Shown here: one piece after another, positions 4,039-20,418 of the stretch | Layout of the letters: every line of letters starts with the position of its first letter | Position numbering within the stretch: the first letter of the stretch is position 1 | NCBI RefSeq assembly: GCF_039649665.1 | Contig: NZ_JBDJAW010000007.1 | Location: 186,001 to 250,000, forward strand | From: Microbispora sp. ZYX-F-249 | GTDB taxonomy: Bacteria > Actinomycetota > Actinomycetes > Streptosporangiales > Streptosporangiaceae | Length of the DNA: 64,000 bases | Reading direction: 5' to 3' | Notes under the pieces: model-generated | What the model was told of the DNA's origin: nothing | Databases searched by the model: none | The model's input: only the letters and a program-made list of their open reading frames with translations | Program-made: the position numbers and the translations under genes

Positions 4039-4640
4039 GCGCGGTCGCGCAGGTTCAGCTTCATGAGCACACGGGCGACGTGGGTCTTGACCGTGGCCTC
4101 GCCGACGAAGAGCTCCTTGGCGATCTCGGCGTTGGTGAGGCCCCGGGCGAGCATCCGCAGCACCTCGAGCTCGCGCGGGGTGAGCTCGGCGAGCTGCGGC
4201 GGCCGCACCGGCTCGTGCCGGCCGGCGAAGGAGGCGATCACCCGCGTGGTCACGGCGGGGTCGAGCAGGCCGTCACCCGCGGCGACGACCCTGATCGCCT
4301 CCACGAGCTGCTCGGGCGGCGACACCTTCAGCAGGAAGCCGCTGGTCCCCGCGCGCAGCGCGGCGTACAGGTTCTCGTCGGTGTCGAACGTCGTCAGCAT
4401 GACGACCTTGGGCGGATGCGGCGCGTCGAGGAGCTGCCGGGCCGCGGTGAGGCCGTCCATGCGCGGCATCGAGATGTCCATCAGCACCACGTCGGGCTGG
4501 ACCCTGCGGGCCAGGGCGACCGCCTCCACGCCGTCGGCGGCCTCGCCCACGATCTCCATGCCGGGCTCGCTCTCGACCACCATGCGCAGACCGGCCCGGA
4601 TCATCGCCTGGTCGTCCGCGAGGACGATGCGGATCGTCAA
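3978..4640 (-). CDS. NarL/LuxR-family response regulator
   Basis: A 220-aa two-domain response regulator. The receiver domain (residues 3-120) has the acidic pair DD at 9-10, phosphoacceptor Asp55 in VVLMDISMP, and the conserved T/K positions in MLTTF and FLLK. The C-terminal LuxR-type HTH (about 150-205) reads LTPRELEVLRMLARGLTN and VKTHVARVLMKLNL. Its ATG overlaps the TGA of the upstream histidine kinase (ATGA, 4637-4640), so the two are translationally coupled cognates. The stimulus is unknown. Confidence 0.95.
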   Translation of the reverse strand: MTIRIVLADDQAMIRAGLRMVVESEPGMEIVGEAADGVEAVALARRVQPDVVLMDISMPRMDGLTAARQLLDAPHPPKVVMLTTFDTDENLYAALRAGTSGFLLKVSPPEQLVEAIRVVAAGDGLLDPAVTTRVIASFAGRHEPVRPPQLAELTPRELEVLRMLARGLTNAEIAKELFVGEATVKTHVARVLMKLNLRDRAQAVVFAYESGVVTPGSALG

Positions 4641-5821
4641 TTCGTGGCCTCGCTCATCGGCACTCCCTGGGAGATCGGCAGCGTCGCGCGGACGCGGAAG
4701 CCGCCCTCCGGCAGCGGCCCCGCGTCGAGGGTGCCGCCGAACAGCTCGGCCCGCTCACGCATGCCGATGAGCCCGTTGCCGGTGGACAGCGCCGGTCCTG
4801 CGCCCCCGCCATTATCGGCGACCTCGAGCTCCAGGTGATCACGGCGGTAGGCGAGCCGGATCCGCACATCGGCCTCCCCGGCGTACTTCACCGCGTTGGT
4901 GAGGGCCTCCTGCACGATCCGGTAGGCCGACAGGTCGAGACCCGGCGCGAGGTGAACGGGCTCGCCCTCCGTCTCCAGCGTGACGCGAAGCCCCGAGGAC
5001 CCGACGGTGGAGATGAGGTTGGGCACCATGTCGAGGCCCGGCTGGGGCAGCGCCTCGTCCTGCGGCATCCGCAGCGCGCCGAGCATGATCCGCAGCTCCT
5101 CGACCGCCTCCCGGCCCGCCTGCTCGATGCCGGACAGGATCGCGGTCTCCGACGAGTGCTCGCCCTCCTGCGCCGTGCCCATCCGGCGGCGCAGCGCGCC
5201 GGCCTGCATGACCATCATGCTGACGCTGTGGGCCACCACGTCGTGCAGTTCCCTGGCGATCCGGCTCCGCTCAGCCGCGACGGCCTCGACGGCCCGGCGT
5301 TCCCGCTCGATCTCCAGCCGCGCCGCCCGCTCGCTCATCCGGTGCGCGCGCAGCAGGTAGCCGCGCAGCGCCAGGCCCGTGGCGTACGCCGAGCCGAACA
5401 TCACCGTCAGGTAGATGACCTCCTCGAACGGCAGGAACCGGTGGTCGACGGCCCCCGAGTCGAAGATCAGGATGCCCGCGAGCGCCCAGGCGCCGCCGTG
5501 CTTCAGGGGCAGGTGGGCGCCGATCGTGTGGAAGACGATGAGCAGCGCGGCGAGCTGCCAGACCGGGCACTGCTCGTTGCCCTGCCGGTGCCAGAGGTAC
5601 TGCGCGAGGATCATCAGGATGAACACCGCCACCGGCGCCCTGCGGCGGTACCAGACCAGGACTCCGGTGGCCAGCGCCTGCCCGACCCACCACAGCTCGG
5701 GGTTCTGGGCCGCGCCGTACTCGGTGGCGACCGTGAACGCCTCGAGGGTGCCCAGCGCCATGATGGCCAGGCCGATCAGGAGGTCGACGCGGGGAACCGA
5801 ACGGAGGGGGGACAAGCGCAT
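4637..5821 (-). CDS. Sensor histidine kinase, DesK/NarX type
   Basis: A 394-aa kinase if the start is the ATG at 5821 (MRLSPLRSVPRVDLL); the frame remains open 32 codons further upstream, but that extension is not hydrophobic and lacks family character. About four to five N-terminal membrane helices occupy residues 13-155. The HisKA_3 dimerisation box RIARELHDVVAHSVSMM carries the phosphoaccepting His. The C-terminal HATPase has VADNGGG and GNGLIGMRERAELFGG. It is followed directly by its response regulator with a 4-bp overlap. It likely senses an envelope or membrane signal. Confidence 0.93.
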   Translation of the reverse strand: MRLSPLRSVPRVDLLIGLAIMALGTLEAFTVATEYGAAQNPELWWVGQALATGVLVWYRRRAPVAVFILMILAQYLWHRQGNEQCPVWQLAALLIVFHTIGAHLPLKHGGAWALAGILIFDSGAVDHRFLPFEEVIYLTVMFGSAYATGLALRGYLLRAHRMSERAARLEIERERRAVEAVAAERSRIARELHDVVAHSVSMMVMQAGALRRRMGTAQEGEHSSETAILSGIEQAGREAVEELRIMLGALRMPQDEALPQPGLDMVPNLISTVGSSGLRVTLETEGEPVHLAPGLDLSAYRIVQEALTNAVKYAGEADVRIRLAYRRDHLELEVADNGGGAGPALSTGNGLIGMRERAELFGGTLDAGPLPEGGFRVRATLPISQGVPMSEATN

Positions 5822-6016
5822 GACGCGCAGAGTAACCCCTATCCGGCATAGCGCGCAGCAGGGAACAGACGTCCCGCAATTGGCCTGCAAGTCATCGTCA
5901 AGTGACCGCGCGATCATCAGCCTGTATCAAGTGGGTGTCGGTCACGATACTCATCTTGTCGAGCACTGTCCGCGCTGAGACGCTTGAAGCGATCCGAACA
6001 CGCCTAGGAGACGCAG

Positions 6017-7700: not shown

Positions 7701-9578
7701 ATGACAGAGGGGCCCGTGATGCCGCCGCTCGTCGGGCGGCGGCTCGGCGACTACACCATCGAGGCGGTCGTCGGGCGGGGCGGCATGGCGACGGTCTACC
7801 GGGCGCGCGACCAGCGGCTCGGCCGGGCCGTGGCGCTGAAGGTGCTCGCGCCGCAGCTCGCGCACGACGACCGCTTCCGCGACCGGTTCGTGCGCGAGTC
7901 GCGGATGGTGGCGAGCATCGACCACCCCAACATCATCCCGGTGTACGAGGCCGGCGAGCGCGACGAGCTGCTGTTCATCGCCATGCGCTACGTCGAGGGC
8001 AGCGACATGCGCAAGCTCGTGCAGTCGGAGGGCCCGCTGCCCGCCGGGCGGGCCAACCTGCTGTTCGCGCAGATCGCCTCCGCCCTGGACTCGGCGCACG
8101 CGCACGGCCTGGTGCACCGCGACGTCAAGCCGGCCAACATCCTGGTCACCCAGTCCGACCACATCTACCTGACCGACTTCGGGCTGACCAAGAGCTCCGC
8201 GGCCGAGGCCGGGCTGACCAGCCACGGCCACTTCATGGGCACCCCGCGCTACGTCGCCCCCGAGCAGATCCGGGGCCTGCCGGTCGACGGCCGCAGCGAC
8301 CTGTACGCCTTCGCCTGCGTGGTGTACGAGGCGCTCGCCGGGCAGCCGCCGTTCCAGCGGGACACCGAACTCGCGCTGCTCTACGCCCACGTCTCCCACG
8401 AACCGCCGCCGCTCACGCCGTACCGGCCGGACCTGCCGCACGCGGTGAACGCGGTCCTGCTGCGGGCGCTGGCCAAGGCGCCGGACGACCGGTTCCCGAC
8501 CGGCCAGGCGTTCGTGTCGGCCCTGCGCGACGCGATCAGCGGCGGCGTGGGCGACCCGGCGGGGCCGGTCTCCCCGTCCTATCCCCCGGGCCCCCAGGCG
8601 TCCTCCGGGCCTACCGTGATCCCGGCACCCCCCGTGTCCGCCGGGTCCTACCCGCAAGGCTCCTACCCGCGGGAGCCCCATACGCAGGGGTCCTATCCGC
8701 AGGAACCCCATGCGCAGGGGTCCTATCCGCGGGCCGCGCCCTCCTCGTTCCCGCCCGGCACCCGGCCGCCCGTCTCCCCCGCCCCGGGCTCGGTGCCGCC
8801 GCAGTCGGTGCCCTCGGCGTCCCGCCCGCCCGTGAGCCACCCGCCGGGCGCCGGGACCTCCGGTCACGGGCAGGCCCAGGGGCACGGCTCGTACCCTCCC
8901 GAGTCGCCGCGCACGCAGGCGACGGTCGCGTCGGCCGCCTCGCGGGGCCGCCGGCGTGGACTGCCGCTCGGGCCGCTGATCGGCGGTCTGGCGGTCCTGG
9001 TGTCCATCGCCGTCGCCGCCGCGCTGCTGCTCACCCGTGGCGGCGACACCGCCGCCACGTGGAACACCTATCCCGGCAGCACCGCGGCGCCGTTCACCAT
9101 GGCCTACCCCGCGAGCTGGGGCGAGGCCAGGACCAACGCCGACCAGTGGATGATCGCCTCACCCGCCGTCGGCGAGTTCGACGCGTTGTTCGCGGTGCCG
9201 GGCAACACCGACTGGTCGAAGGTGAACCCCATCATCACGGCCCACCCGGACCGGGCGACGGGGGTGTTCGCCCAGGTCAGCAACACTCTGAGCACCTCGG
9301 ACTCGCCGTTGGAGCTGCAGGAGAGCCTGGGCCCCGCGCTCCCCGGCGTGACCACCTACTACGGCGTGCCGGCTCCCACGACCGTCGGGGCCAAGCCGGC
9401 GTTCCGGATCGAGGGCGTGCTCAGCGACCCCCAGCAGACCGGGCGCCTGGACTTCTCCGCCTACGTCGTCCGTCAGGGCGACGCCGGCACGACCGTCCTG
9501 ATCACGTTCTTCTGCCCGGCCGGCCGGTGCGACCGCGCGCTCATCGACCACATGGTGAACACGATCACCTTCAAGTAG
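7701..9578 (+). CDS. PknB-type receptor Ser/Thr protein kinase
   Basis: A 625-aa transmembrane kinase. The kinase domain covers about residues 17-280: glycine loop GRGGMATV (25-32), ATP lysine Lys47, catalytic loop HRDVKPAN (139-146), DFG (159-161) and APEQ. Residues 290-420 are a Pro/Ser/Gln-rich linker with a SYPQ/SYPR repeat (about 315-343). One membrane helix lies near 423-446, and about 180 extracytoplasmic residues follow without PASTA repeats. The extracellular part does not match a family I can name. The gene follows the pseudoprotease gene by 43 bp and ends 8 bp inside the convergent cbiZ gene. Confidence 0.93.
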   Translation: MTEGPVMPPLVGRRLGDYTIEAVVGRGGMATVYRARDQRLGRAVALKVLAPQLAHDDRFRDRFVRESRMVASIDHPNIIPVYEAGERDELLFIAMRYVEGSDMRKLVQSEGPLPAGRANLLFAQIASALDSAHAHGLVHRDVKPANILVTQSDHIYLTDFGLTKSSAAEAGLTSHGHFMGTPRYVAPEQIRGLPVDGRSDLYAFACVVYEALAGQPPFQRDTELALLYAHVSHEPPPLTPYRPDLPHAVNAVLLRALAKAPDDRFPTGQAFVSALRDAISGGVGDPAGPVSPSYPPGPQASSGPTVIPAPPVSAGSYPQGSYPREPHTQGSYPQEPHAQGSYPRAAPSSFPPGTRPPVSPAPGSVPPQSVPSASRPPVSHPPGAGTSGHGQAQGHGSYPPESPRTQATVASAASRGRRRGLPLGPLIGGLAVLVSIAVAAALLLTRGGDTAATWNTYPGSTAAPFTMAYPASWGEARTNADQWMIASPAVGEFDALFAVPGNTDWSKVNPIITAHPDRATGVFAQVSNTLSTSDSPLELQESLGPALPGVTTYYGVPAPTTVGAKPAFRIEGVLSDPQQTGRLDFSAYVVRQGDAGTTVLITFFCPAGRCDRALIDHMVNTITFK

Positions 9579-10281
9579 CCCGGCGGGCCCGCCAGTCCCG
9601 CGCGCCGTCGAGGACGGCCCGGTGGACCGCACGGGCGATCCGCGCGCCCCACAGCGAGCGCGGGCCGCCGAACGCCTCCGCCGGGCCCTCCTCCCGTACG
9701 GCGACGCAGACGGCGTCCGACGCGGTCCCCGTACAGGGAAAGCCCGCCTCCAGCAGCGCCTGCGTCTTCGCCTCGGTCACCGTCATCACGGCGTTGACCA
9801 GCGCAGGGTCGGAGAACGCGACGGGCACGGCCACCAGGATGTTGATCGTCCCCGGGCGCGGCACGCCCGCCCCCGCGTCGCCCCCGCCGACCGCCTCCCG
9901 CGCGGGTTCGGGGACGTACGGCACGCCGGGGTCGGGCACGCCCTCGGGCGAGGCCGCCCAGGTCGGCACGCCGAGTCCCACCGTGGCGACGGCCTCCGCT
10001 CCCCCGTCCGCCGCGGCGGCGTAGCGCTCCACCAGCGCCGCCGTCATCATGCCGACCCCGGGACCGCCGGGGCCGAGCGCGTCCATGTGCTCCACCGGAT
10101 CCATGCGTGCGTAACCGGCCGCCACCTGCGCGTTCAGCACCCACTCGCGGCGGCCGACGCCGCCGCCCAGCATCGCGGAGGAGATCATCCGCCAGCCGGG
10201 CCCGAACCGCCACAGCAGCGCGCCGAGCCGCAGGCCGTCCTCCTCGCGGTAGGTCAGGGACGGCCGCGGCAGGCCCGTCAC
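9571..10281 (-). CDS. cbiZ: Adenosylcobinamide amidohydrolase CbiZ
   Basis: A 236-aa protein that removes the aminopropanol side chain of adenosylcobinamide so that imported incomplete corrinoids can be rebuilt into coenzyme B12. Family features include WRMISSAMLGGGVG, GVGMMTAALV, TVGLGVPTWAA, INILVAVPVAFSDPALVNAVMTVTEAKTQAL (split over 155-185) and GTASDAVCVA. The GTG at 10281 overlaps the TGA of the ABC ATPase gene (GTGA), which decides the start. It is the last gene of the riboswitch-controlled btuF-btuC-btuD-cbiZ operon. Its 3' end overlaps the convergent kinase gene by 8 bp. Confidence 0.88.
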   Translation of the reverse strand: MTGLPRPSLTYREEDGLRLGALLWRFGPGWRMISSAMLGGGVGRREWVLNAQVAAGYARMDPVEHMDALGPGGPGVGMMTAALVERYAAAADGGAEAVATVGLGVPTWAASPEGVPDPGVPYVPEPAREAVGGGDAGAGVPRPGTINILVAVPVAFSDPALVNAVMTVTEAKTQALLEAGFPCTGTASDAVCVAVREEGPAEAFGGPRSLWGARIARAVHRAVLDGARDWRARRAT

Positions 10282-11099
10282 GCTCCCTCCGCGGGGGCCA
10301 TCCGGGAGGCCGGCGGCCGGACCAGGTGGACGAGCGGGCGGCCGTCGGCGCCCGGCTCCACCCGCACGCTGGCGCCGAAGTGCTCGGTCAGCAGGGGCTC
10401 GGCCAGCACCCGCTCGGGTGGCCCGGCCGCGACCGCGCGACCGGCGGCGAGCAGCACGAGCGCGTCGGCGTACTGCCCGGCGAGGCTGAGGTCGTGCAGC
10501 GTCGTGACGACGGTGAGGCCGTCGGCCAGGCGCAGCCGGTCGACGAGTTCGAGCACCTGCTGCTGATGGCCGAGGTCGAGCGCCGTCGTCGGCTCGTCCA
10601 GCAGGAGCACCGGCGCCTGCTGCGCCAGCGCCCGGGCGAGCACGACCCGCTGCCGTTCGCCCCCGGACAGGTGCCCGAGCGGCCGGGACGCGAAGCCGTC
10701 CAGGTCGAGCCGTTCCAGCACCGACCGCGTCACCTCGCGGTCCCGCGGGCTCTCGCTGCCGAGGTAGGGGATGTACGGCGTGCGGCCCAGCAGCGCGTAG
10801 TCGTACACCTTCATGTCGGGCGGCAGCGCGGGACTCTGCGGGGCGTAGGCGATCAGCCGGGCCCGCCGGCGCGGGCGCAGGTCGTCCACGGCCGTCCCGT
10901 CGACGAGCACCTCGCCCTCTCTCGGGACCAGCCCGGCGACGGCCCGCAGCAGCGTGGACTTGCCCGCGCCGTTCGGCCCGATGACCGCCAGCCACCGGCC
11001 GCGCTCGGCCGACAGCGTGACGTCCGTGAGCACCCGCCGTCCGCCGAGCGTGACGCCCACGCCGCGCGCCTCGATCGCCGGGTGCCCGTCGCCGCTCAC
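10278..11099 (-). CDS. btuD: Corrinoid ABC transporter ATP-binding protein
   Basis: A 273-aa ATPase of the FecE/BtuD type. Walker A is GPNGAGKST (about residues 38-46), the signature is LSGGERQRV, and Walker B is VLLLDEPTTALDL. The GTG start at 11099 overlaps the TGA of the permease gene by four bases. The family also serves iron-siderophore importers. The riboswitch upstream and CbiZ downstream point to cobalamin or cobinamide as the substrate. Confidence 0.9.
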   Translation of the reverse strand: MSGDGHPAIEARGVGVTLGGRRVLTDVTLSAERGRWLAVIGPNGAGKSTLLRAVAGLVPREGEVLVDGTAVDDLRPRRRARLIAYAPQSPALPPDMKVYDYALLGRTPYIPYLGSESPRDREVTRSVLERLDLDGFASRPLGHLSGGERQRVVLARALAQQAPVLLLDEPTTALDLGHQQQVLELVDRLRLADGLTVVTTLHDLSLAGQYADALVLLAAGRAVAAGPPERVLAEPLLTEHFGASVRVEPGADGRPLVHLVRPPASRMAPAEGA

Positions 11100-12136
11100 G
11101 TCTCCACCCGCCGGGTCACGCGCAGCACGGTGACGAAGAAGGGCGCGCCGACGAACGCCGTCACCACCCCGATCGGCAGCTCGGCCGGCGCGAGCACGGT
11201 GCGCGCGATCGTGTCGGCCAGCACGAGGAACGCCGCGCCGCCGAGGAACGACAGCGGCAGCACGATCCGGTACGACCAGCCGGCGAGCCGCCTGACCACG
11301 TGCGGCACGACGATCCCGACGAACGCGATCAGCCCGCTGACCGCGACCGCGGCCGCGGTGGCGAGCGAGGCGGCCAGCACCACGGCGAATCGCACACGCG
11401 CCGCGTGCAGGCCGAGGCTGACGGCCTCCTCGTCGCCGACCGACAGCACGTCGAGCAGCCGCCCGTGCAGCAGCATGACGACGGTCGACACCACGGCGTA
11501 CGGCGCGATCATGCGGACCTGGTCCCAGCCGCCGCCGACGTCGCCGAGGATCCAGGCGTAGATCCGCTGCAGCTCCTCCACCTTGAGCTGCTGCACGAAG
11601 GTCTGGATCGCGGTGAGGAACGAGGTGACCGCGACCCCGGCGAGCACGAGCGTCGCGGTGCCGCCGCCCCGGCCCGCCGTGTGGCCCAGCGCGTACGCGA
11701 GGAACACCCCGCCGACGGCCCCGGCGAAGGCGGCGACCGGCACCGCGGTGACCCCGGCGTCGCCGCCCAGGAAGACCACGACGAGCGTGACCGTGAGACC
11801 GGCCCCGGCCGCCGCGCCGAGCAGGTACGGATCGGCCAGCGGGTTGCGGAACACCCCTTGGTAGCCCGCCCCGGCGGTGGCGAGCAGCCCGCCCACGACG
11901 GCGGCGAGCAGCACCCGCGGCACCCGGAGCTGGAACAGCAGGTTCTCCTCGACCGGCGCGAGCCCCGAGTGCAGGGACACCAGCGGCAGCCGGTCGAGCA
12001 GCGCGAGCGCGATGCCGCGGGGCGAGATGCCCGCCGCGCCCGCCACCAGGCCGACGGCGAGGCTGGCCGCCAGCACGACGGACGCGACGAGCAGCGCCCG
12101 CCCGCGCCGGGCCGGGATCACGGCGTCACCACGCAT
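11096..12136 (-). CDS. btuC: Corrinoid ABC transporter permease (FecCD family)
   Basis: A 346-aa integral membrane protein with about ten helices. Family hallmarks include FQLRVPRVLLAAVVGGLLATAGAGYQ, NPLADPYLLGAAAGAG and GLIAFVGIVVPHVVRRLAG. It forms the translocation channel as a homodimer with the BtuD-like ATPase, fed by the BtuF-like lipoprotein encoded just upstream (31-bp gap). Substrate assignment rests on the riboswitch and cbiZ in the same operon. Confidence 0.9.
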   Translation of the reverse strand: MRGDAVIPARRGRALLVASVVLAASLAVGLVAGAAGISPRGIALALLDRLPLVSLHSGLAPVEENLLFQLRVPRVLLAAVVGGLLATAGAGYQGVFRNPLADPYLLGAAAGAGLTVTLVVVFLGGDAGVTAVPVAAFAGAVGGVFLAYALGHTAGRGGGTATLVLAGVAVTSFLTAIQTFVQQLKVEELQRIYAWILGDVGGGWDQVRMIAPYAVVSTVVMLLHGRLLDVLSVGDEEAVSLGLHAARVRFAVVLAASLATAAAVAVSGLIAFVGIVVPHVVRRLAGWSYRIVLPLSFLGGAAFLVLADTIARTVLAPAELPIGVVTAFVGAPFFVTVLRVTRRVET

Positions 12137-12167: not shown

Positions 12168-13133
12168 TCAGTTCGCCGCCTTCTGGACGGCGTCGCCGAC
12201 GGCCTGGGCGAGATCGGCGACCCGCGGCCCCCAGCGGGAGGCGATGTCGTCGTCCAGCTCGACCACGCGGCCCTTCTTCACCGCGGACAGACCGGACCAG
12301 CCGGGCCGCTTGGCCAGCGTGGCGGCGTTCTGGCCGCAGCACTTGGTGTCGCCCAGGAAGATCAGGTCGGGGTCGGCCTTGGCGATGAACTCCGCCGACA
12401 GCTTGGGGTATCCGCCCGCCGCGTCGGGCGCCTCGTCGGCGATGTTCTTCAGCCCGAACAGGTTGTAGACCTGCCCGATGAAGGTGCTGGACGTCGCCGC
12501 GTAGGGCGTGCTGTCCAACTCGTGGTAATAGGTCAGGCTCTTGCCCTTCGGCGCCGCCGCCGCGAGGGCGTCGATCTTCTGCTTGACGCCGTCGGCCACC
12601 TCCTCGGCCTTGGCCGTGTTGCCGGTGGCCGCGCCGAGGTCCCTGATCTGGTCGTAGGTCTCGTCCAGCTTGGTCGCGGCGGGTTCGAGCAGCACCGGCA
12701 CGCCGACCTTCCCCAGACCGGCCACGACGCCTTCGAGGTCGTTGGCGAGCACGACGAGGTCGGGCTTGGCGGCCACGATCGCCTCGACGTTGGGCTTGAA
12801 CCCCGACAACGAGGTCTTCGGCGCCTCCGGCGGGTAGTTCGACTGGTCGTCCACCGCCGACACCTGCGCGCCCGCGCCGATCGCGAACAGGATCTCGGTG
12901 GCCGTGGGCGACAGCGACACGATGTGCTCGGGGCGCTTGGCGATGGTCACCGCGCCGTTTCCGGCCTGCACGGTGACGGGGAAGGCGCCCTGTCCCGTGC
13001 CGTTCGAGGCGGCGGTGTCCGAGACTGCGGGGGTGGGGGGCGCGGACGTGGCGGCGCCGTCGGTCTGGCCGCAGCCGGCCAGTCCGAGCACGCCCAGCAC
13101 CACACCCGCGACGGCCGTGCGTACGGGCCTCAC
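12168..13133 (-). CDS. btuF: Corrinoid ABC transporter substrate-binding lipoprotein
   Basis: A 321-aa helical-backbone binding protein. The signal peptide ends in a lipobox, GLAG-Cys at about residue 21, so it is lipid-anchored outside the membrane. The mature part begins with RPEHIVSLSPTATEILFAIGAG and continues VVLANDLEG, as in the BtuF/FhuD class. A DTKCCG pair of cysteines near residue 265 is unusual and could be a disulfide. It is the first gene after the cobalamin riboswitch and opens the uptake operon. Confidence 0.92.
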   Translation of the reverse strand: MRPVRTAVAGVVLGVLGLAGCGQTDGAATSAPPTPAVSDTAASNGTGQGAFPVTVQAGNGAVTIAKRPEHIVSLSPTATEILFAIGAGAQVSAVDDQSNYPPEAPKTSLSGFKPNVEAIVAAKPDLVVLANDLEGVVAGLGKVGVPVLLEPAATKLDETYDQIRDLGAATGNTAKAEEVADGVKQKIDALAAAAPKGKSLTYYHELDSTPYAATSSTFIGQVYNLFGLKNIADEAPDAAGGYPKLSAEFIAKADPDLIFLGDTKCCGQNAATLAKRPGWSGLSAVKKGRVVELDDDIASRWGPRVADLAQAVGDAVQKAAN

Positions 13134-13214: not shown

Positions 13215-13345
13215 GGCGTCGGCGCGCAGCGCAGGCGACCTGGCTCGTCCCCGGGGGCGGGGAACCACAGTTGCGGGACAGCGCCGGATTCTCACCGGAC
13301 TTCGCTGCGCGGCGCGCGTCGGACGCAACGGTACCAATCCCCTTG
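13215..13345 (-). ncRNA. Cobalamin (adenosylcobalamin-type) riboswitch
   Basis: Read on the minus strand, the leader holds the class hallmarks in order: GCGAAGTCCGGTGAGAATCC, then GCGCTGTCCCGCAACTGT (about 13270-13312), then the B12 box GAGCCAGGTCGCCTGC (13231-13246). It lies 80-210 bp upstream of the btuF start. Binding of a corrinoid is expected to reduce expression of the btuFCD-cbiZ operon. The outer limits are estimates; the core match is strong. Confidence 0.92.
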
Positions 13346-13422
13346 CCGGCGTCCACCCCCGCCCCGCTCTCGCCGGGCCGTGCCCAGGCCCCCGTGCCGC
13401 CCCCGGTGGCGGCGGCCGCTCG

Positions 13423-15612
13423 TCAGGACGGCGACGGCCGCAGGCCGCACCAGGCGTCGGCGCAGGTGAGGACGTGATAGGTGGGGGTTGTCCTGCCGTC
13501 GCGCGTGCCGTACCACACGACGCGCGGGCGCCGGTCGGGACCGATGGCGACGTCCGCCTCGCCCACGTGGGACGTGGGGACCAGGCGGGTGACGCCTCTC
13601 CCCACGCAGTCGTCGTCGCGGCAGAACAGGACGGCTACCGGTGGGCCGGCCGCGTCGTACCCGGCCAGAACGGGCCGGCCGGCCGGATCCAGGGCCAGGC
13701 CGGGGGCGCTCAGCGCGACCAGCTCGGAGGCCGGCACCGTCCGCGGGGTCCCGGAGCAGGACGGATCGCGGCAGAGCAGGATCGTCGTGTCCCCGGTGCC
13801 ACCACCGTTGTGGACGATCACCGGTCTGCCGTCCGGCCTGACGGCGACCTGGAGCCGCAGGTCGTCGAAGGACCTCCGGGGGTCGTACCGTGGCGAGGAC
13901 CTGTCGGGCATGTCGAACGCGCGCATGGCCGGATGCCCGCACGCCACGGTGTCGCAGATCGCGATGGTGACCTTCCGGGTGATCGGGTCCGCGTACGCGA
14001 TCACCGGGCGCCTGTCCGGAGACGCCGCTACGGCGAGGGCGCGGGGCTTTCGGTCTCCGACGAAGTCCGCGACGGTGAGGTCTCCCACCGTGATCGTCCG
14101 GGGGTGGACGCAGGCGAGGTCCGGGCACCGCGTGAGCGTCACGCGTGCGGGAGCCGGGTATCGGTCCGCGGAGACGGGCGCGATCGAGGCGACGGCGATG
14201 CCGTCTCGCGTCGCGACCGCCGTGGCGTTCACCGGGGCCACGTCCAGCCGGAACGCGTCGCCGGGCGCTGTCCGCAACGGCGGGCCGGGACGCCACGTGC
14301 AGCCGCCGGGCCGGCAGGAGAACAGCTGGAGCTTCCGCCGTCCGGCCTCATCGGGCCCTCTCACCCAGCCCGCGAACACCACCGAGCCGTCGGGGGTGAC
14401 CGCCGCCCCGGCCTGCCCCTCGAAGGAGGCGTCCAGGATGACGGTGGTCTGCGTGCCGCAGGTGCCGTCGCCGCAGAACGTCACCTCCTGGAACCCCCGG
14501 TCGCGGATGACGATCGGAACCCCGCGAGGGCCGAAGACGATCCGGACCGGTCCCGGGCCGTTCTCGCGGAGATCCCAGCCGAGGTCCTCGCCCGCGATCT
14601 CGTTGTCGGTCACGCCGGCGAGCGGACCGGCCACCGCGTAGCCGCCGTACAGCAGGCCGGGCAGAAGCACCAGCCCGACCGGCCACCAGCGCGTACGCCA
14701 CCCGCCGCGCGCGCCGCCGGGCGCGGTCGCGGAGCATCCGCGCCCGCCCTTGTCTCCCCGGATCACCAGGGCTCCCCAGCGCGCCTCGTTCTTCTTATGA
14801 AGCCGCGCGTAGCAGCAGCCGAGCACCGCGGCCTGGAACGGCACCAGCAGGACGCCCGCCGTCATCCGCAGGGCGTCACCGAACTGCACACCGGCCGGGA
14901 CGGGGAGGGCCGCGCAGAGGAGGTGCAGACCGAGCTGCGCCAGGCCCGGAACGACGGCGAAGGCCACCACGATCGTCCGGATCGTCCACCAGTAGTCGTA
15001 GGCCGCCAGGTGATACGCCGCCGTCAGCGGGGGAATCCGTTCGGGCAGCGCCGTCCAGGCGAGTACGGCCGGGAGCGCCAGGAGGACGAGCAGCACGCCC
15101 AGGATCACCGCCGCGACGATCGATCCCGTCGCATGGGCCACCACGGCCGTGACGCCGGCCTGCACGGCGAGAATCACCACGAGATTGACGGTGAGCAGCA
15201 GCACGGCGTGCGGGCGCCGGAGAACGGCCAGAACGGCACGCCCCGCCGACAGGGGGCGGCCCTCGATGTGGCCCACCACGAGGTGGCTGCCCGCGGCCAG
15301 GCAGGCGAAGCCCGCCACGACGGTCGTCAGCACGAGCCCGACGACGATCCATAGGACGGCCGGTGAGGGCACGAGGAGCACAGGAGCTCCGTTGACGAAG
15401 GAGACCCGGTGGCCCAGGGCCACCAGCACGGCCACCAGCGCCACGAACGGCGGGACGAGGACCAGGGCGCACACCGCCAGCAGATGCCGGTAGAGACGGA
15501 CGGCCGTGCCGTACATAATGCGCAGGCCGCGAAAGCCTCTCAACTGGTCGAACGCGTCATCCGGCCAGGCGGCGGGCGATCCCGCCTCGCTCACCGGCGT
15601 GCCGAGGCTCAT
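13423..15612 (-). CDS. Multi-TM protein with exported seven-module C-x4-C (propeller-like) domain, paralogue A
   Basis: A 729-aa protein. Residues 30-300 contain about six membrane helices with a conserved loop HIEGRPLSAGRAV and the motif LGCCYARL. A further helix lies near 308-328. The C-terminal 390 residues are predicted outside the cell and hold seven C-x4-C modules: CGDGTC, CRPGGC, CPDLAC, CDTVAC, CRDPSC, CRDDDC, CADAWC. They are spaced with repeats of the type PDGRPVI and VVWYGT, which suggests a seven-bladed beta-propeller with one small disulfide per blade. It is last of three tandem paralogues, 30 bp after paralogue B. No function is recognised. RBS GGAGG precedes the ATG. Confidence 0.85.
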   Translation of the reverse strand: MSLGTPVSEAGSPAAWPDDAFDQLRGFRGLRIMYGTAVRLYRHLLAVCALVLVPPFVALVAVLVALGHRVSFVNGAPVLLVPSPAVLWIVVGLVLTTVVAGFACLAAGSHLVVGHIEGRPLSAGRAVLAVLRRPHAVLLLTVNLVVILAVQAGVTAVVAHATGSIVAAVILGVLLVLLALPAVLAWTALPERIPPLTAAYHLAAYDYWWTIRTIVVAFAVVPGLAQLGLHLLCAALPVPAGVQFGDALRMTAGVLLVPFQAAVLGCCYARLHKKNEARWGALVIRGDKGGRGCSATAPGGARGGWRTRWWPVGLVLLPGLLYGGYAVAGPLAGVTDNEIAGEDLGWDLRENGPGPVRIVFGPRGVPIVIRDRGFQEVTFCGDGTCGTQTTVILDASFEGQAGAAVTPDGSVVFAGWVRGPDEAGRRKLQLFSCRPGGCTWRPGPPLRTAPGDAFRLDVAPVNATAVATRDGIAVASIAPVSADRYPAPARVTLTRCPDLACVHPRTITVGDLTVADFVGDRKPRALAVAASPDRRPVIAYADPITRKVTIAICDTVACGHPAMRAFDMPDRSSPRYDPRRSFDDLRLQVAVRPDGRPVIVHNGGGTGDTTILLCRDPSCSGTPRTVPASELVALSAPGLALDPAGRPVLAGYDAAGPPVAVLFCRDDDCVGRGVTRLVPTSHVGEADVAIGPDRRPRVVWYGTRDGRTTPTYHVLTCADAWCGLRPSPS

Positions 15613-15642
15613 GTCCCTCCTCCGTGTGTCCGGGCGCTTCGT

Positions 15643-17748
15643 TCAGGACTTCAGGCAGTACGGGTCGGCGCAGGTGAGGACGTGATAAGCGGGCGTCCCC
15701 CCGCGATCGGGCGTGCCGTACCAGACGATGCGCGGGCGGCGGTCGGGGCCGATGACGAGGTCGAGGGGACCGAACGCGTTCGCGGGAATGAGGGGGGTGA
15801 GCCGGCGGCGGGCGCAGCCGGTGTCCTCGCACGCCAGGACGGTCACCCAGAGGTTCTCCGTGTCGTAGCCGGCCAGGATCGGACGGCCGGCGGCGTCAAG
15901 GGCCAGGCCGGGGGCGCTCCTGGTGGCGATCTCGGACACGGTCACGGACCGCGGGGCCCCGGAACACTCCCGGTCGGGACAGAAAAGGATCTTCGAGACC
16001 TCGCGCTCCGGGTCATTCTCGACGATCACCGGCCTGCCGTCCGGCCCGATCGCCATCTGGATCCGCAGTGAACCGGTGAGCCACCCCCACAGGACCGGCT
16101 CGGGCGACTCGGACGCCGTGAAGGCATGGCTCCGCGGATGCGGGCACGCGGGAGAGTCGCAGCTCACCACGGTCGTCCTCCGCGAGACCCGGTCGACGAA
16201 GGCGATCACCGGGCGCCCGTCCGGGGACACGGCGACGGCGACCGTGCGGTTGTCCACGCTGACGGCGGCCCTGTCGCGGAGGCGGCCGACAGTGACGGTC
16301 CGCGGAGCGGTGCACGCGGCGTCCCGGCAGAGCGTGAGCTCGACGCGCGCGAAAACGCCGCCGGAGCCGGGCTCCGGGGCGATCGACGCGATGGCGACGC
16401 CGTCCGGTGTCGCGGCCGCCGCGACGTTCACGTGCAGCCACCCTTTCCGCGCCAGCCTCAACGGACTTCCGGGCCGTCGCGCACAGCCGCCGGGGCGGCA
16501 GGAGAACAGGTGGAGCTCGACGTCGTCGCTCGGCGACGGCTCGTACACCCATCCGGGGATCAGCACCGAGTCGTCGGGCATGGAGGTGGCGACGGACTGC
16601 CCGTCCAGGTAGGCCCCCAGGGGGACGGCGGCCTGCCGCGCGCAGGCGCCGTCGCCGCAGAAGGCCGGCTTCGGCATGCCGCGGTCGGTGATGACGACCG
16701 GTCGGCCGCCGGAGCCGGTGACGATCTGGGCGCCGATCGGCTGGTCCGGGTACCGCTCCTTCGCGATGAGCTCGTTGTCGACCACCTCGGCCCGCCCGAG
16801 CGGGTTGGCGGCGGCGAACACCCCGTACAGCAGGCCGGGGAGCAGCGCGGCCACGACAGGCCAGGACCCGGTCCGCCGCCTGGCGGGTTCGCCGGTCGTC
16901 GTGGGCTCCGGCGTGTCCCACTTCCTGAGGTAGGCGTAGCAGCATCCCAGCGTGGCCGCCTGAAACGGTGCGAGCAGGACTCCCGCCGTCACCCGTACGG
17001 CGTCGGCGATCGCCACGCCGGTGGGAACCGGGAGCAGGAAGCGCAGGCCGTACAGGGCCGCCTGGGCCAGACCGGGGATGACGAGGCACGCCAGCGCCAC
17101 CCTCCAGGCCGTCCCCGTGTAGTCGCGGGCGGCCAGGCGGAACGCCGTTCTCAGCGGAGGAAGGCGCCCCGAAGACACGGTCAGCGCGGTCAGGGCGAGC
17201 AGGGCGGGCAGCGTGAAGAGGCCGGCCACCGCGACCAGGACCAGCGCCAGAACGATCGACTCCAGCAGCTCCGCCACGACGACGACCAGGACGAGCAGCG
17301 CTCCGGCCACCAGCGTCAGCTCGGCGGCGAGCAGCAGGAAGGCGTGCGGACGGCGCAGGACGGCCAGGACGGCACGCGCCGGCGACGACGGGCGACCGTC
17401 GATGTGATCGACGACGAGGCGGCTGCCCGCGGCCGAACAGGCGAGTCCGGCGGCGATCATGATGAGCAGCACCCCGGCGTACGCCCACAGGACGCCCGGC
17501 GACGAGGTCAGGAGCAGCGGGGTCCCGTTGACGATGACGATCCGATCGTCCAGGGCCACGACCACGGCCGCCGTCGCCACGAGGGCCGGGACGATCGTCA
17601 TGGCGCACACGGCCAGCAGCGGCCGGTAGAGGCGGCCGGCGGTGCCGTACACGATCTCGAGGTTGCGTCCGCCCCACACCTCGGCGAGCGTCTCCTGCGA
17701 CCACCCCTCCGATCGGGCCGCGGGGCTGGTGGACGATTCGATACTCAT
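15643..17748 (-). CDS. Multi-TM protein with exported seven-module C-x4-C (propeller-like) domain, paralogue B
   Basis: A 701-aa protein with the same plan as its neighbours. A short N-terminus carries the shared motif YGTAGRLYRPLLAVCA. Helices span about residues 40-290 with the loop DHIDGRPSSPARAVLAVL and LGCCYAYL. A helix near 300-318 (LLPGLLYGVFAA) leads into an exported domain (about 340-701). That domain has seven C-x4-C modules: CGDGAC, CRPGGC, CRDAAC, CDSPAC, CPDREC, CEDTGC, CADPYC. It lies in the middle of the tandem set and is probably co-transcribed with the other two. Function is unknown. Confidence 0.85.
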   Translation of the reverse strand: MSIESSTSPAARSEGWSQETLAEVWGGRNLEIVYGTAGRLYRPLLAVCAMTIVPALVATAAVVVALDDRIVIVNGTPLLLTSSPGVLWAYAGVLLIMIAAGLACSAAGSRLVVDHIDGRPSSPARAVLAVLRRPHAFLLLAAELTLVAGALLVLVVVVAELLESIVLALVLVAVAGLFTLPALLALTALTVSSGRLPPLRTAFRLAARDYTGTAWRVALACLVIPGLAQAALYGLRFLLPVPTGVAIADAVRVTAGVLLAPFQAATLGCCYAYLRKWDTPEPTTTGEPARRRTGSWPVVAALLPGLLYGVFAAANPLGRAEVVDNELIAKERYPDQPIGAQIVTGSGGRPVVITDRGMPKPAFCGDGACARQAAVPLGAYLDGQSVATSMPDDSVLIPGWVYEPSPSDDVELHLFSCRPGGCARRPGSPLRLARKGWLHVNVAAAATPDGVAIASIAPEPGSGGVFARVELTLCRDAACTAPRTVTVGRLRDRAAVSVDNRTVAVAVSPDGRPVIAFVDRVSRRTTVVSCDSPACPHPRSHAFTASESPEPVLWGWLTGSLRIQMAIGPDGRPVIVENDPEREVSKILFCPDRECSGAPRSVTVSEIATRSAPGLALDAAGRPILAGYDTENLWVTVLACEDTGCARRRLTPLIPANAFGPLDLVIGPDRRPRIVWYGTPDRGGTPAYHVLTCADPYCLKS

Positions 17749-17824
17749 TTCCCCCCCCCTCGTGGCCGCGGGCCGGTCGTGTGAAGCCGGGCCGCGGGCA
17801 GATCGGCGCCCCGGCCCCCGTTCC

Positions 17825-19954
17825 TCATGGGGCGCAGTGCGGGTCGGCGCAGGTGAGCAGGTGGTACGCGTTGTCGCCGGCCGGATCGGCCGTGCCGTAC
17901 CACAGAATGCGCGGCCGTTGGTCGGAGCCGATGGCGAGGTCGAACTGCCCGACCCCGCCGGCGGGCAGCAGAGGGGAGGCGGAGCGGCGGGCGCAGTCCT
18001 GGTCCCGGCACGCGACCAGGTCGATCACCATGGCGCCCTTCCGGCGGTACCCGGCCAGCAGAGGGAGGCCTTGGGCGTCCAGGGCGAGGCCGGGCGCGCT
18101 CACCGCCACGACCTCGGGCACGGGCACGAAACGAGGCGTGCCGGAACAGGCCGGATCGGAGCAGAGCAGGACCGTCGAGGTGTGACCGTCGCCGGGGTCG
18201 CTGTACACGACGACCGGCCGGCCGTCCGGCCGCACCGCCACCTGCGTGCGCAGGTTGCTGGTCAGCCAGGTGTACCTGGTCAGCGCGGGCAGGTCGAACG
18301 CGTGGATCGACGGGTGTGCGCACGCCGCGGACTCGCAGCTCGCCACGGTGAGCTTGTGGGTGCCCCTGTCGGTGTAGGCGACGACCGGCCTCCCGTCCGG
18401 GGAGGCGGCGACGGCCAGGACGCGGGCGTCCATGTCCTCCAGCGTCCAGCTGTCGACGATGTCGCCCACCGGGACGACGCGGCGCCGGGCACAGGCGACG
18501 TCGTCGCACAGCGCGAGCACGACGCGGGAGAGGGGCTTCTTGCCGCGGCCGGGAAGACGGGCGCTCCAGGCGATGGCGAGGCCGTGCGGTGTCGCCACGG
18601 CGGCGGCCCGCGCGTCCGACGTCTCCTCGGTGGCCAGCGGTTCGCCCGGCCGCCGGATGCAGCCGTCGGGCCGGCAGGAGAACATCACCAGCTCCATCCG
18701 GGAGGCGCCGATCTCATCTGTCCAGCCCGCGACGACCAGCGAGCCGTCGGGCGCGACCACCGTCGCCGGATGGGTGCGGAAGTGCTCGTCCAGCGTGACG
18801 CTGACATGGTCGCCACACGTGTCGTCACCGCAGAACACCGCCACCGGGCGGCGCTCGTCGCGGAAGACGACAGGTTTCCCGCCGGGGCCGAGCATGATCT
18901 CGGTGCGCGACGGGTAGTCCACGGCCTCTTCCTTGACGCCGATCTCGTTGTCGACCGTTCGGGCCCATGAGAGCGGCTCGGCCGCGTACCCGCCGTACAG
19001 CAGACCGGGCAGCAGGGCGACCAGCAGTACGGCCGGCCACGCGACGATCGGCCACCACCGCCGCCGCCCGACGCGCTCGTTTCCGCGGTCGTGGCCCTCC
19101 TCCCGGTCGAGGCCGTGGACAGTGGCCGGTTCCAACCGTTGCAGGCGGGCGTAGCAGCAGCCCACGGCGGCGGCCTGGAGCGGCGTCTGCAGGACGGTCG
19201 CGGCCAGTCGCGCCGCGTCGCGGAACAGCCCGTCGGTGGGGGCGGGAAGCAGCCCGCCCAGTGCGAACAGGCCCAGGTGGAGCAGGACGGGAACGGCGAG
19301 GTATCCCAGCGCCAGCGTCCAGACGGCCTCGCCGTAGCCACGGGAGATCAGCCGCCACGTCGTGCGCAGCGGAGGCACCCCGTCGGTCAGTGCGGCCCAC
19401 GCGATCATCAGCGGCAGCGTGGTGACGCCGGCCGCCGTCACCACGATCACCGCCGGGACGACGGACTCCGCCGAGGCCGCGAGCGCCGCACCGATGGCCA
19501 CCAGCACGGCGACGGCCGGCACGAACACGATGACGAGCATGGCGAACGCTCGCGGCCGGCGCAGGACGGCCGTCACCGCGAGCCGGGCCGACAACGGACG
19601 GCCGTCGATGTGGTCCAGCACGAGACGGGCGCCGCCGGCCAGGGCGGCGAGGCCTGACGCGATCGCGGTCACCGCGGACACGGCGAGGACCACGCCGAAG
19701 ACCGGTGAGGGCTCGACGAACCGCGGGATTCCGCCGACGACCGCGACCCGGCCGCCCGCGGCGACCAGCACGGCCAACGGCGCCACAAGGCCCGGGACGA
19801 AAGTAATGGCGCATATCGTTAGCAGATGCCGATAAAGGCGGCCGGCCGTGCCGAAAATAACCGAAACGCTGCCACGGGTGGCCATTCGCGCAGAAGTATC
19901 CGCGGGCCGGCCTCCGGATCGCGTCGTCGCGCTCGCGAGCGGTTCGAGATCCAT
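17825..19954 (-). CDS. Multi-TM protein with exported seven-module C-x4-C (propeller-like) domain, paralogue C
   Basis: A 709-aa protein, first of the three in transcription order. The N-terminal motif FGTAGRLYRHLLTICA, the loop DHIDGRPLSARLAV and GCCYARL match its two paralogues. A membrane helix near 312-330 (VALLPGLLYGGYAA) precedes the exported domain with CGDDTC, CRPDGC, CDDVAC, CESAAC, CSDPAC, CRDQDC and CADPHC. The second and third modules are separated by a basic stretch (LPGRGKKPLSRV) not found in the others. RBS GAGGAGA precedes the ATG. The membrane part loosely recalls GPDPase-type membrane domains, which is a weak impression only. Confidence 0.85.
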   Translation of the reverse strand: MDLEPLASATTRSGGRPADTSARMATRGSVSVIFGTAGRLYRHLLTICAITFVPGLVAPLAVLVAAGGRVAVVGGIPRFVEPSPVFGVVLAVSAVTAIASGLAALAGGARLVLDHIDGRPLSARLAVTAVLRRPRAFAMLVIVFVPAVAVLVAIGAALAASAESVVPAVIVVTAAGVTTLPLMIAWAALTDGVPPLRTTWRLISRGYGEAVWTLALGYLAVPVLLHLGLFALGGLLPAPTDGLFRDAARLAATVLQTPLQAAAVGCCYARLQRLEPATVHGLDREEGHDRGNERVGRRRWWPIVAWPAVLLVALLPGLLYGGYAAEPLSWARTVDNEIGVKEEAVDYPSRTEIMLGPGGKPVVFRDERRPVAVFCGDDTCGDHVSVTLDEHFRTHPATVVAPDGSLVVAGWTDEIGASRMELVMFSCRPDGCIRRPGEPLATEETSDARAAAVATPHGLAIAWSARLPGRGKKPLSRVVLALCDDVACARRRVVPVGDIVDSWTLEDMDARVLAVAASPDGRPVVAYTDRGTHKLTVASCESAACAHPSIHAFDLPALTRYTWLTSNLRTQVAVRPDGRPVVVYSDPGDGHTSTVLLCSDPACSGTPRFVPVPEVVAVSAPGLALDAQGLPLLAGYRRKGAMVIDLVACRDQDCARRSASPLLPAGGVGQFDLAIGSDQRPRILWYGTADPAGDNAYHLLTCADPHCAP

Positions 19955-20418
19955 TCTCTCCTCGCGGGCGCCTGTATAGGACGAACGACCGGTCTACCTC
20001 CGGCGATGCTCGAACGGCGAAGTGCCGGAAACCAGGCCAGACTAATCCACCAATCGAGATCGCGCATCCCATAGATTTCTCGTGATATCGGAGAATTTCG
20101 ACGGGCGGCCGAATTGCGCCTTCGCGGCGATCGCGCCTCCTGCCGATGCCTGGTCCCTGAACCGGGCCTGCCATTTACGACGCGAGAGGCCGGGTGTGCC
20201 GAGCACGGTGGGGAGGCCGGGCGCCGGACAGCACCTGGACGTTGCCGCCGTGGTGCTTGTGCTTGCCGCTCCACCCCTCGCCGGCGCCGTTCTGGCCGGG
20301 CCTCGGGCGCCCGCCCTTCGTCCGAACCCTCGGCGCGGTCCCGTCCCGGCCTGGTCACCGCGCCACGGGCACGGACGGCCGCCTTCCTCCCTTCCGTCAC
20401 CTGGGCGTTCCCGGGGAC

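Follow-up and report, generated by a model that had tools for sequence, protein, structure and literature searches.

Three tandem Microbispora membrane proteins with predicted seven-bladed propellers and one cysteine pair per blade, encoded in a present/absent islet

The window analysed here, a stretch of 64,000 nucleotides from Microbispora sp. ZYX-F-249 (contig NZ_JBDJAW010000007.1, positions 186,001 to 250,000), contains three adjacent genes, A, B and C, which run on the minus strand in the order C, B, A with only short gaps between them (Table 1). Alignment reveals a common plan across the full length of the three proteins, with B being 51% and C 45% identical to A. A promoter scan gave two sites, both of which fall within the coding sequence of A, while terminator-like sites were not found in the same scan. 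Nearby is a cobalamin riboswitch (13239-13299, minus strand), lying ahead of BtuF-, BtuC- and BtuD-like genes (12168-13133, 11096-12136 and 10278-11099) which have a CbiZ-like frame close to them (near 9571-10213), the genes being named by eye. Membership of A, B and C in this cobalamin operon was considered and rejected, as the riboswitch lies outside the islet described below, in a flank that is shared with genomes lacking the three genes. The tRNA-Gln that ARAGORN places within the BtuF-like coding region (12930-13022, plus strand) is probably a false positive.

Table 1. Coordinates of the three genes, their parts and the islet within the window
Feature	Position	Strand	Basis
Paralogue A, 729 aa: membrane half and seven-bladed C-x4-C propeller	13423..15612	-	ORF and model
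Paralogue B, 701 aa, plan as in A	15643..17748	-	ORF and alignment
Paralogue C, 709 aa, plan as in A; leads the three in reading direction	17825..19954	-	ORF and alignment
Membrane half of A (residues 1-334), modelled with seven long helices, GPDPase_memb-like	14611..15612	-	
A exported propeller, residues 335-729	13426..14610	-	AlphaFold2 model
A first to last C-x4-C loop; first Cys at residues 380, 433, 496, 553, 614, 664 and 717	13447..14475	-	computed from residue numbers
B exported propeller, seven C-x4-C pairs	15646..16782	-	
C exported propeller, seven C-x4-C pairs	17828..18955	-	
Islet, approximate edges; missing in 8/8 gene-less Microbispora genomes with contiguous flanks	13367..20394	.	

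From residue 335 onward each protein has 14 cysteines, all of which fall into seven C-x4-C pairs, and no other C-xn-C spacing occurs in the exported halves when n is taken from 0 to 11. When the residues of these halves were shuffled 20,000 times the mean number of C-x4-C pairs was 0.46-0.50 and the maximum 4-5. The seven pairs, spaced 50-63 residues apart, correspond one-to-one among A, B and C, and the preliminary description of this DNA, which had claimed exactly seven aligned pairs per paralogue in the same order, was accurate in this as well as in its motif list and coordinates. The membrane halves have six (A), five (B) and three (C) cysteines, none of them within a C-x4-C. Across 36 distinct genes of the family, giving 252 combinations of gene and pair position, both cysteines are present in 238, a single one in 0 and neither in 14, with all 14 losses in the last blade. 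An earlier count of 42 rows, which held six genes twice, had given 278, 1 and 15 of 294; its single cysteine, in blade 2 of L029, is paired in the alignment of the 36 distinct genes. The propeller has 14 cysteines in 22 of these genes, 12 in 13 and 13 in one, L043, which is the sole member with an unpaired cysteine, and in four Pseudomonadota modules 12 of the 14 cysteines remain aligned. Pairs are therefore lost or kept jointly, which is what disulfides would give and is not expected of independent functional thiols, and this indirectly supports the C-x4-C pairs being real disulfides.

An AlphaFold2 model of A, built with 21 family rows, has a mean pLDDT of 74.3 and a pTM of 0.60. When the chain from residue 351 onward is divided into 38 blocks of ten residues, 27 of them reach a pLDDT of at least 80. 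Past residue 333 it contains 29 strands, which without a short one at 437-440 leaves 28, that is seven times four, and each C-x4-C begins at most one residue away from where the third strand of its blade ends, in the hairpin between strands C and D. The propeller part of L048, a protein from a Wenzhouxiangellaceae MAG, was modelled by itself (pLDDT 86.8, pTM 0.89) and also has 28 strands, in the order 1 + 6x4 + 3; the position of the C-x4-C at the C-D hairpin is seen in the models of these two proteins only. L048 carries six C-x4-C repeats plus one C-x3-C, and L050, L054, L055, L071 and L075 have seven C-x4-C each. Foldseek placed PLL lectins at ranks 1-21 for the A model (best E 8e-9, target TM 0.65) and at ranks 1-22 for the L048 model (TM 0.78). 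A propeller of seven blades, each with its own C-x4-C loop, behind a polytopic half had been anticipated from the letters, with a structure prediction of A suggested as the check; the model, the strand count and Foldseek all agree with it, the C-x4-C positions are aligned to the repeats, and the seven-blade fold is well supported at the level of prediction. The strand at 334-338, directly behind the last long helix, would from its place in the strand order be the fourth strand of blade 7 and so close the ring in velcro fashion. As the pLDDT falls below 50 at residues 321-331 and 342-351, and given the overall pTM, the orientation derived from this closure rests on strand order rather than on a confident interface.

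The model has seven long helices in the first half of A, at residues 41-69, 84-116, 134-162, 165-187 (broken), 207-233, 240-279 and 310-331, and these are read as membrane helices. With the propeller placed outside, there are 15 lysines and arginines among the 106 residues set inside and 0 among the 22 set outside, a charge distribution consistent with export of the propeller and with an N-terminus in the cytoplasm. A 21-row profile of the membrane half is colinear with a GPDPase_memb-like set, with an hhalign probability of 98.4% over 268 columns, the set having been taken from the same bacterial family with a seed that exceeds the PF10110 cut-off; against this seed alone the probability is 93.6%. 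Controls gave no more than 0.25% for 20 single polytopic proteins and 0.10% for the reversed set. The polytopic controls were single sequences selected by hydropathy, 40 having been found and 20 kept after removal of family members, and some of them are mutual orthologues whilst at least one resembles a spurious frame. In Pfam, PF10110 matches none of A, B and C at E 1 and one of 24 family members (E 0.0017), and none of the three proteins matches a phosphodiesterase domain. On the profile comparisons the membrane half is distantly related to GPDPase_memb.

A profile of the three proteins finds relatives in at least 42 of 200 genomes of the order, including that of the window, and in at least 15 of 45 genera; 21 of the 42 carrier genomes have a single match among the candidates scored. 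The propeller itself is present in at least 10 of 296 genomes of the phylum of the window, again including its own, and among 299 genomes of the phylum of G495 it is found only in the centre genome among the candidates scored. All these tallies are lower bounds, since five first-look candidates per genome were scored in the order-wide scan and at most six in the two phylum scans. Named genomes, scanned once, yielded 19 loci, of which 14 are in Microbispora, Planotetraspora, Microtetraspora, Sinosporangium, Nonomuraea and Actinomadura; the other five are in Pseudomonadota and all come from MAGs. The distribution of the propeller is patchy, and propellers like it sit on different surface anchors. 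In the Pseudomonadota MAG proteins L048-L051 it is found without the seven-helix base, behind an N-terminal region that by eye is stalk-like. Three proteins from Actinomycetota carry it behind a collagen-like stretch that falls under the Pfam cut-off (L054), behind a single hydrophobic helix recognised by eye (L055) and ahead of PKD and CW_binding_2 domains that are both over the cut-off (L071). In a quick tree A adjoins B with a support of 81, and the fork between C, A+B and the genes of Planotetraspora and Microtetraspora is without resolution, which suggests that the copies arose at about the time when these genera split; long branches make the deep joins unsure. Nonomuraea fuscirosea has a tandem triplet of its own (L040, 7890-14639) that sits elsewhere in the tree. 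When the 19 loci and the window were compared by BLAST clusters, constant gene order was seen only among the Microbispora loci, with none between genera, and no conserved partner gene was present; a conserved neighbourhood was therefore rejected as a clue to function.

In A, B and C none of the models of Pfam and NCBIfam scores above its cut-off, nor does any over the propeller in the proteins that were scanned singly. At E 1 the 24 family members matched 11 Pfam families, each in one member only, and such stray matches, of which the best was to Cytochrom_C_asm (E 9.4e-5), were not used. WD40 and WRAP propellers resemble the family in that one profile (A6) sums to E 2.6e-11 against nvWRAP-T across many short repeats. 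However, that match contains no single significant stretch, a second profile (A5) gives no such match, GH and WD dipeptides are almost absent and there is no Pfam match to WD40, so that kinship with WD40 was rejected on the first two grounds. In the case of BNR_4 and Asp-box propellers there is a sub-threshold BNR_4 match in the distant relative L071 (22.7 bits against a cut-off of 27.3), yet the S-x-D-x-G-x-x-W box is missing from A, B and C. PHROGs gave no match for A, B and C and weak ones for L048 and L050 (best E 0.0005), the L048 module has no match among phage sequences, the A propeller has one weak plasmid match, in Nocardiopsis (26.8% identity), and matches in BFVD are structural only. 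An anti-phage system was rejected, as PADLOC gave no match at E 0.1. In the open-licence papers searched none contained any of six spelled blade motifs, nothing related by title was found on Microbispora beta-propellers or C-x4-C propellers, and GPDPase_memb terms gave none. The main text of a survey of repetitive propellers (PMC9218822) is without the words cysteine and disulfide and mentions 17 sequences that matched no known propeller family. The claim that no described family has this plan stands in part: no model in Pfam or NCBIfam passes its cut-off for the three proteins, but the propeller is not unique to the plan and the fold is of a known type. It is the cysteine pair in each blade, the coupling to a GPDPase_memb-like base and the islet that were not found in the catalogues and open-licence papers searched.

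We lean slightly towards A, B and C being surface-display devices, in which a helical base carries an outward propeller with a role in recognition or adhesion. The seven-helix base, distantly akin to GPDPase_memb, would hold the seven-bladed propeller outside the cell, and each blade would have its outer hairpin (strands C-D) pinned by one disulfide. The chain would leave the last helix and almost immediately enter the ring-closing strand, and with the last helix directly before that strand the side with the disulfides and the DGRP motifs would be turned towards the membrane and the B-C and D-A loops outwards. This outer side may bind a ligand, be it a glycan, an envelope polymer or a foreign protein, and the proteins may thus act as adhesins or recognition receptors.

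A narrower reading is that the propeller is a strict lectin on a membrane base, binding sugars between its blades as the seven-bladed PLL/PHL lectins of Photorhabdus do. Like A and L048 these have seven four-stranded blades, they head the Foldseek lists for both models, and relatives of the family sit on surface anchors. The identity in these structural matches is, however, only 10-16%, and no PLL chain is among the PDB sequence matches at cut-offs of either E <= 1 or E <= 10. According to passages of PMC6943638, in PLL sites the sugar is stacked on tryptophan between blades, and the cysteines of PLL lectins are intermonomer ones, as opposed to one cysteine pair per blade in A, B and C. Tryptophan sites of this type are not conserved in the family; the A, B and C propellers have five or six scattered tryptophans each, and across 24 family rows W700 alone is invariant and W416 nearly so. 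Moreover, PLL lectins are without the membrane base that A, B and C carry in addition. A lectin function is suggested by the predicted fold only, and we regard the strict form of it as rather unlikely.

The three genes lie in an islet of about 7 kb that is carried by four of 15 Microbispora genomes. In eight of the 11 non-carriers the flanks are on one contig and jump from about window position 13366 to a point near 20395, the flank matches being 10-129 bases apart in seven genomes, and no remnant of A, B or C was detected at E 0.01 in these eight empty sites. In G009 the site holds about 1 kb of other DNA (L105, about 457-1485) with NmrA-like and HxlR-like frames, named by eye. Among the three remaining non-carriers the flank genes are split between contigs in two, and in the third neither is found at E 1e-60. 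The islet site, which lies between an acyltransferase-like gene and btuF, is variable. An origin by a mobile element was rejected on the plasmid, phage, PHROGs and BFVD results given above and because only two 9-base direct matches were found between the 200-base ends of the islet.

Among the four carriers the window strain alone has all three copies at full length; L033 lacks the middle of B, L034 that of A and L035 that of C, each through an internal deletion and a change of frame. Because three carriers each have another of the copies broken, and because half of the carrier genomes of the order have a single match scored, an obligate three-part complex is unlikely. The earlier proposal of three ligands or a hetero-complex is weakened to that extent, different ligands being still possible. 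The copies decay separately, and in this present/absent islet each variant would be dispensable by itself.

Intact copies compared with those of the window have an omega of 0.43-0.72 in six orthologue comparisons, a range that leaves out A-L034, B-L033 and C-L035 as comparisons with paralogues or broken copies. Ten flanking genes give 0.10-0.41 with a median of 0.26 (27 comparisons, the gene at 4640-5917 being compared across 86 and 122 codons only), so dN/dS is about twice as high in the family genes. It is dN that is raised and not dS, which is 0.09-0.13 against 0.04-0.35 in the flanks. Within the propeller variable cells make up 77 of 328 in the outer loops (B-C and D-A) and 32 of 255 in the disulfide-side loops (A-B and C-D), with a Fisher p of 0.0009, or 64 of 285 against 32 of 231 (p 0.013) when the linker at 339-355 and the cysteine cells are left out. 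As the cells combine three sets of orthologues, they are not entirely independent of each other, and by copy the excess has a p of 0.056 in A, 0.015 in B and 0.23 in C. The side with the disulfides and DGRP motifs thus appears to be the more constant one, and it would face the membrane if the ring closure is read rightly. Variable cells are as frequent in the membrane half (169 of 971) as in the propeller (181 of 1151), and the omega of the membrane half against the window is the higher one in both B (0.52-0.55 versus 0.36-0.37) and C (0.96-1.15 versus 0.43-0.52), so fast change is not special to a binding face. With whole-gene omega below 1, relaxed constraint explains the rates as well as diversifying selection does.

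It could accordingly be proposed that the genes are dispensable, under relaxed selection and without an important present function in Microbispora, since they are missing from 11 of 15 congeners, are intact as a set in only one of the four carriers, the other three each having one copy broken, and show the raised omega just given, which in the C membrane half reaches 0.96 and 1.15. We consider this unlikely, because even so no whole gene reaches an omega of 1, and over the 36 divergent genes the cysteine pairs have stayed complete, or have gone only as whole pairs, in the manner described above. Alternatively the proteins may take part in biological conflict, as a phage adsorption site, a bacteriocin target or a means of kin recognition, in which case loss and variation of copies would be a response to selection. 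The different broken copy in each of three relatives, the present or absent islet with other DNA at its site in G009, and the raised omega would all be in keeping with this. Yet whole-gene omega does not exceed 1, the membrane half is as variable as the propeller, drift of dispensable genes would yield the same pattern and PADLOC is silent, and we hold such a role to be quite unlikely. Propellers often serve as platforms, and the membrane half groups with GPDPase_memb-type domains, but that the membrane half does the work in an envelope transport or assembly machine, with the propeller as its docking platform, is distinctly improbable given that the genera compared share no gene order and most Microbispora genomes are without the locus.

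Returning to surface display, which we prefer, a much wider form of it can be put forward as a speculation that is itself improbable. An unnamed disulfide-pinned propeller would be a general bacterial recognition head on interchangeable anchors, displayed in Streptosporangiales by a seven-helix base, the rigid disulfide side being turned to the membrane and the variable side out, and an arms race over the bound ligands would decide which tandem copies are kept or discarded. If the surface-display reading is right, it adds a propeller family, present in two phyla, with its own disulfide in each blade, and an architecture in which it is coupled to a seven-helix membrane base; it also predicts which side binds, and the Microbispora genomes with three, two or no copies would constitute a natural experiment.

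Finally, two of the relatives are notable for their repeats. The Pseudomonadota MAG protein at L047 6885-9245 has 12 C-x4-C pairs and is possibly made up of two fused propellers. In L054 (1477-3234, minus strand) consecutive C-x4-C blades are by eye nearly identical, which suggests a recent amplification of one blade.
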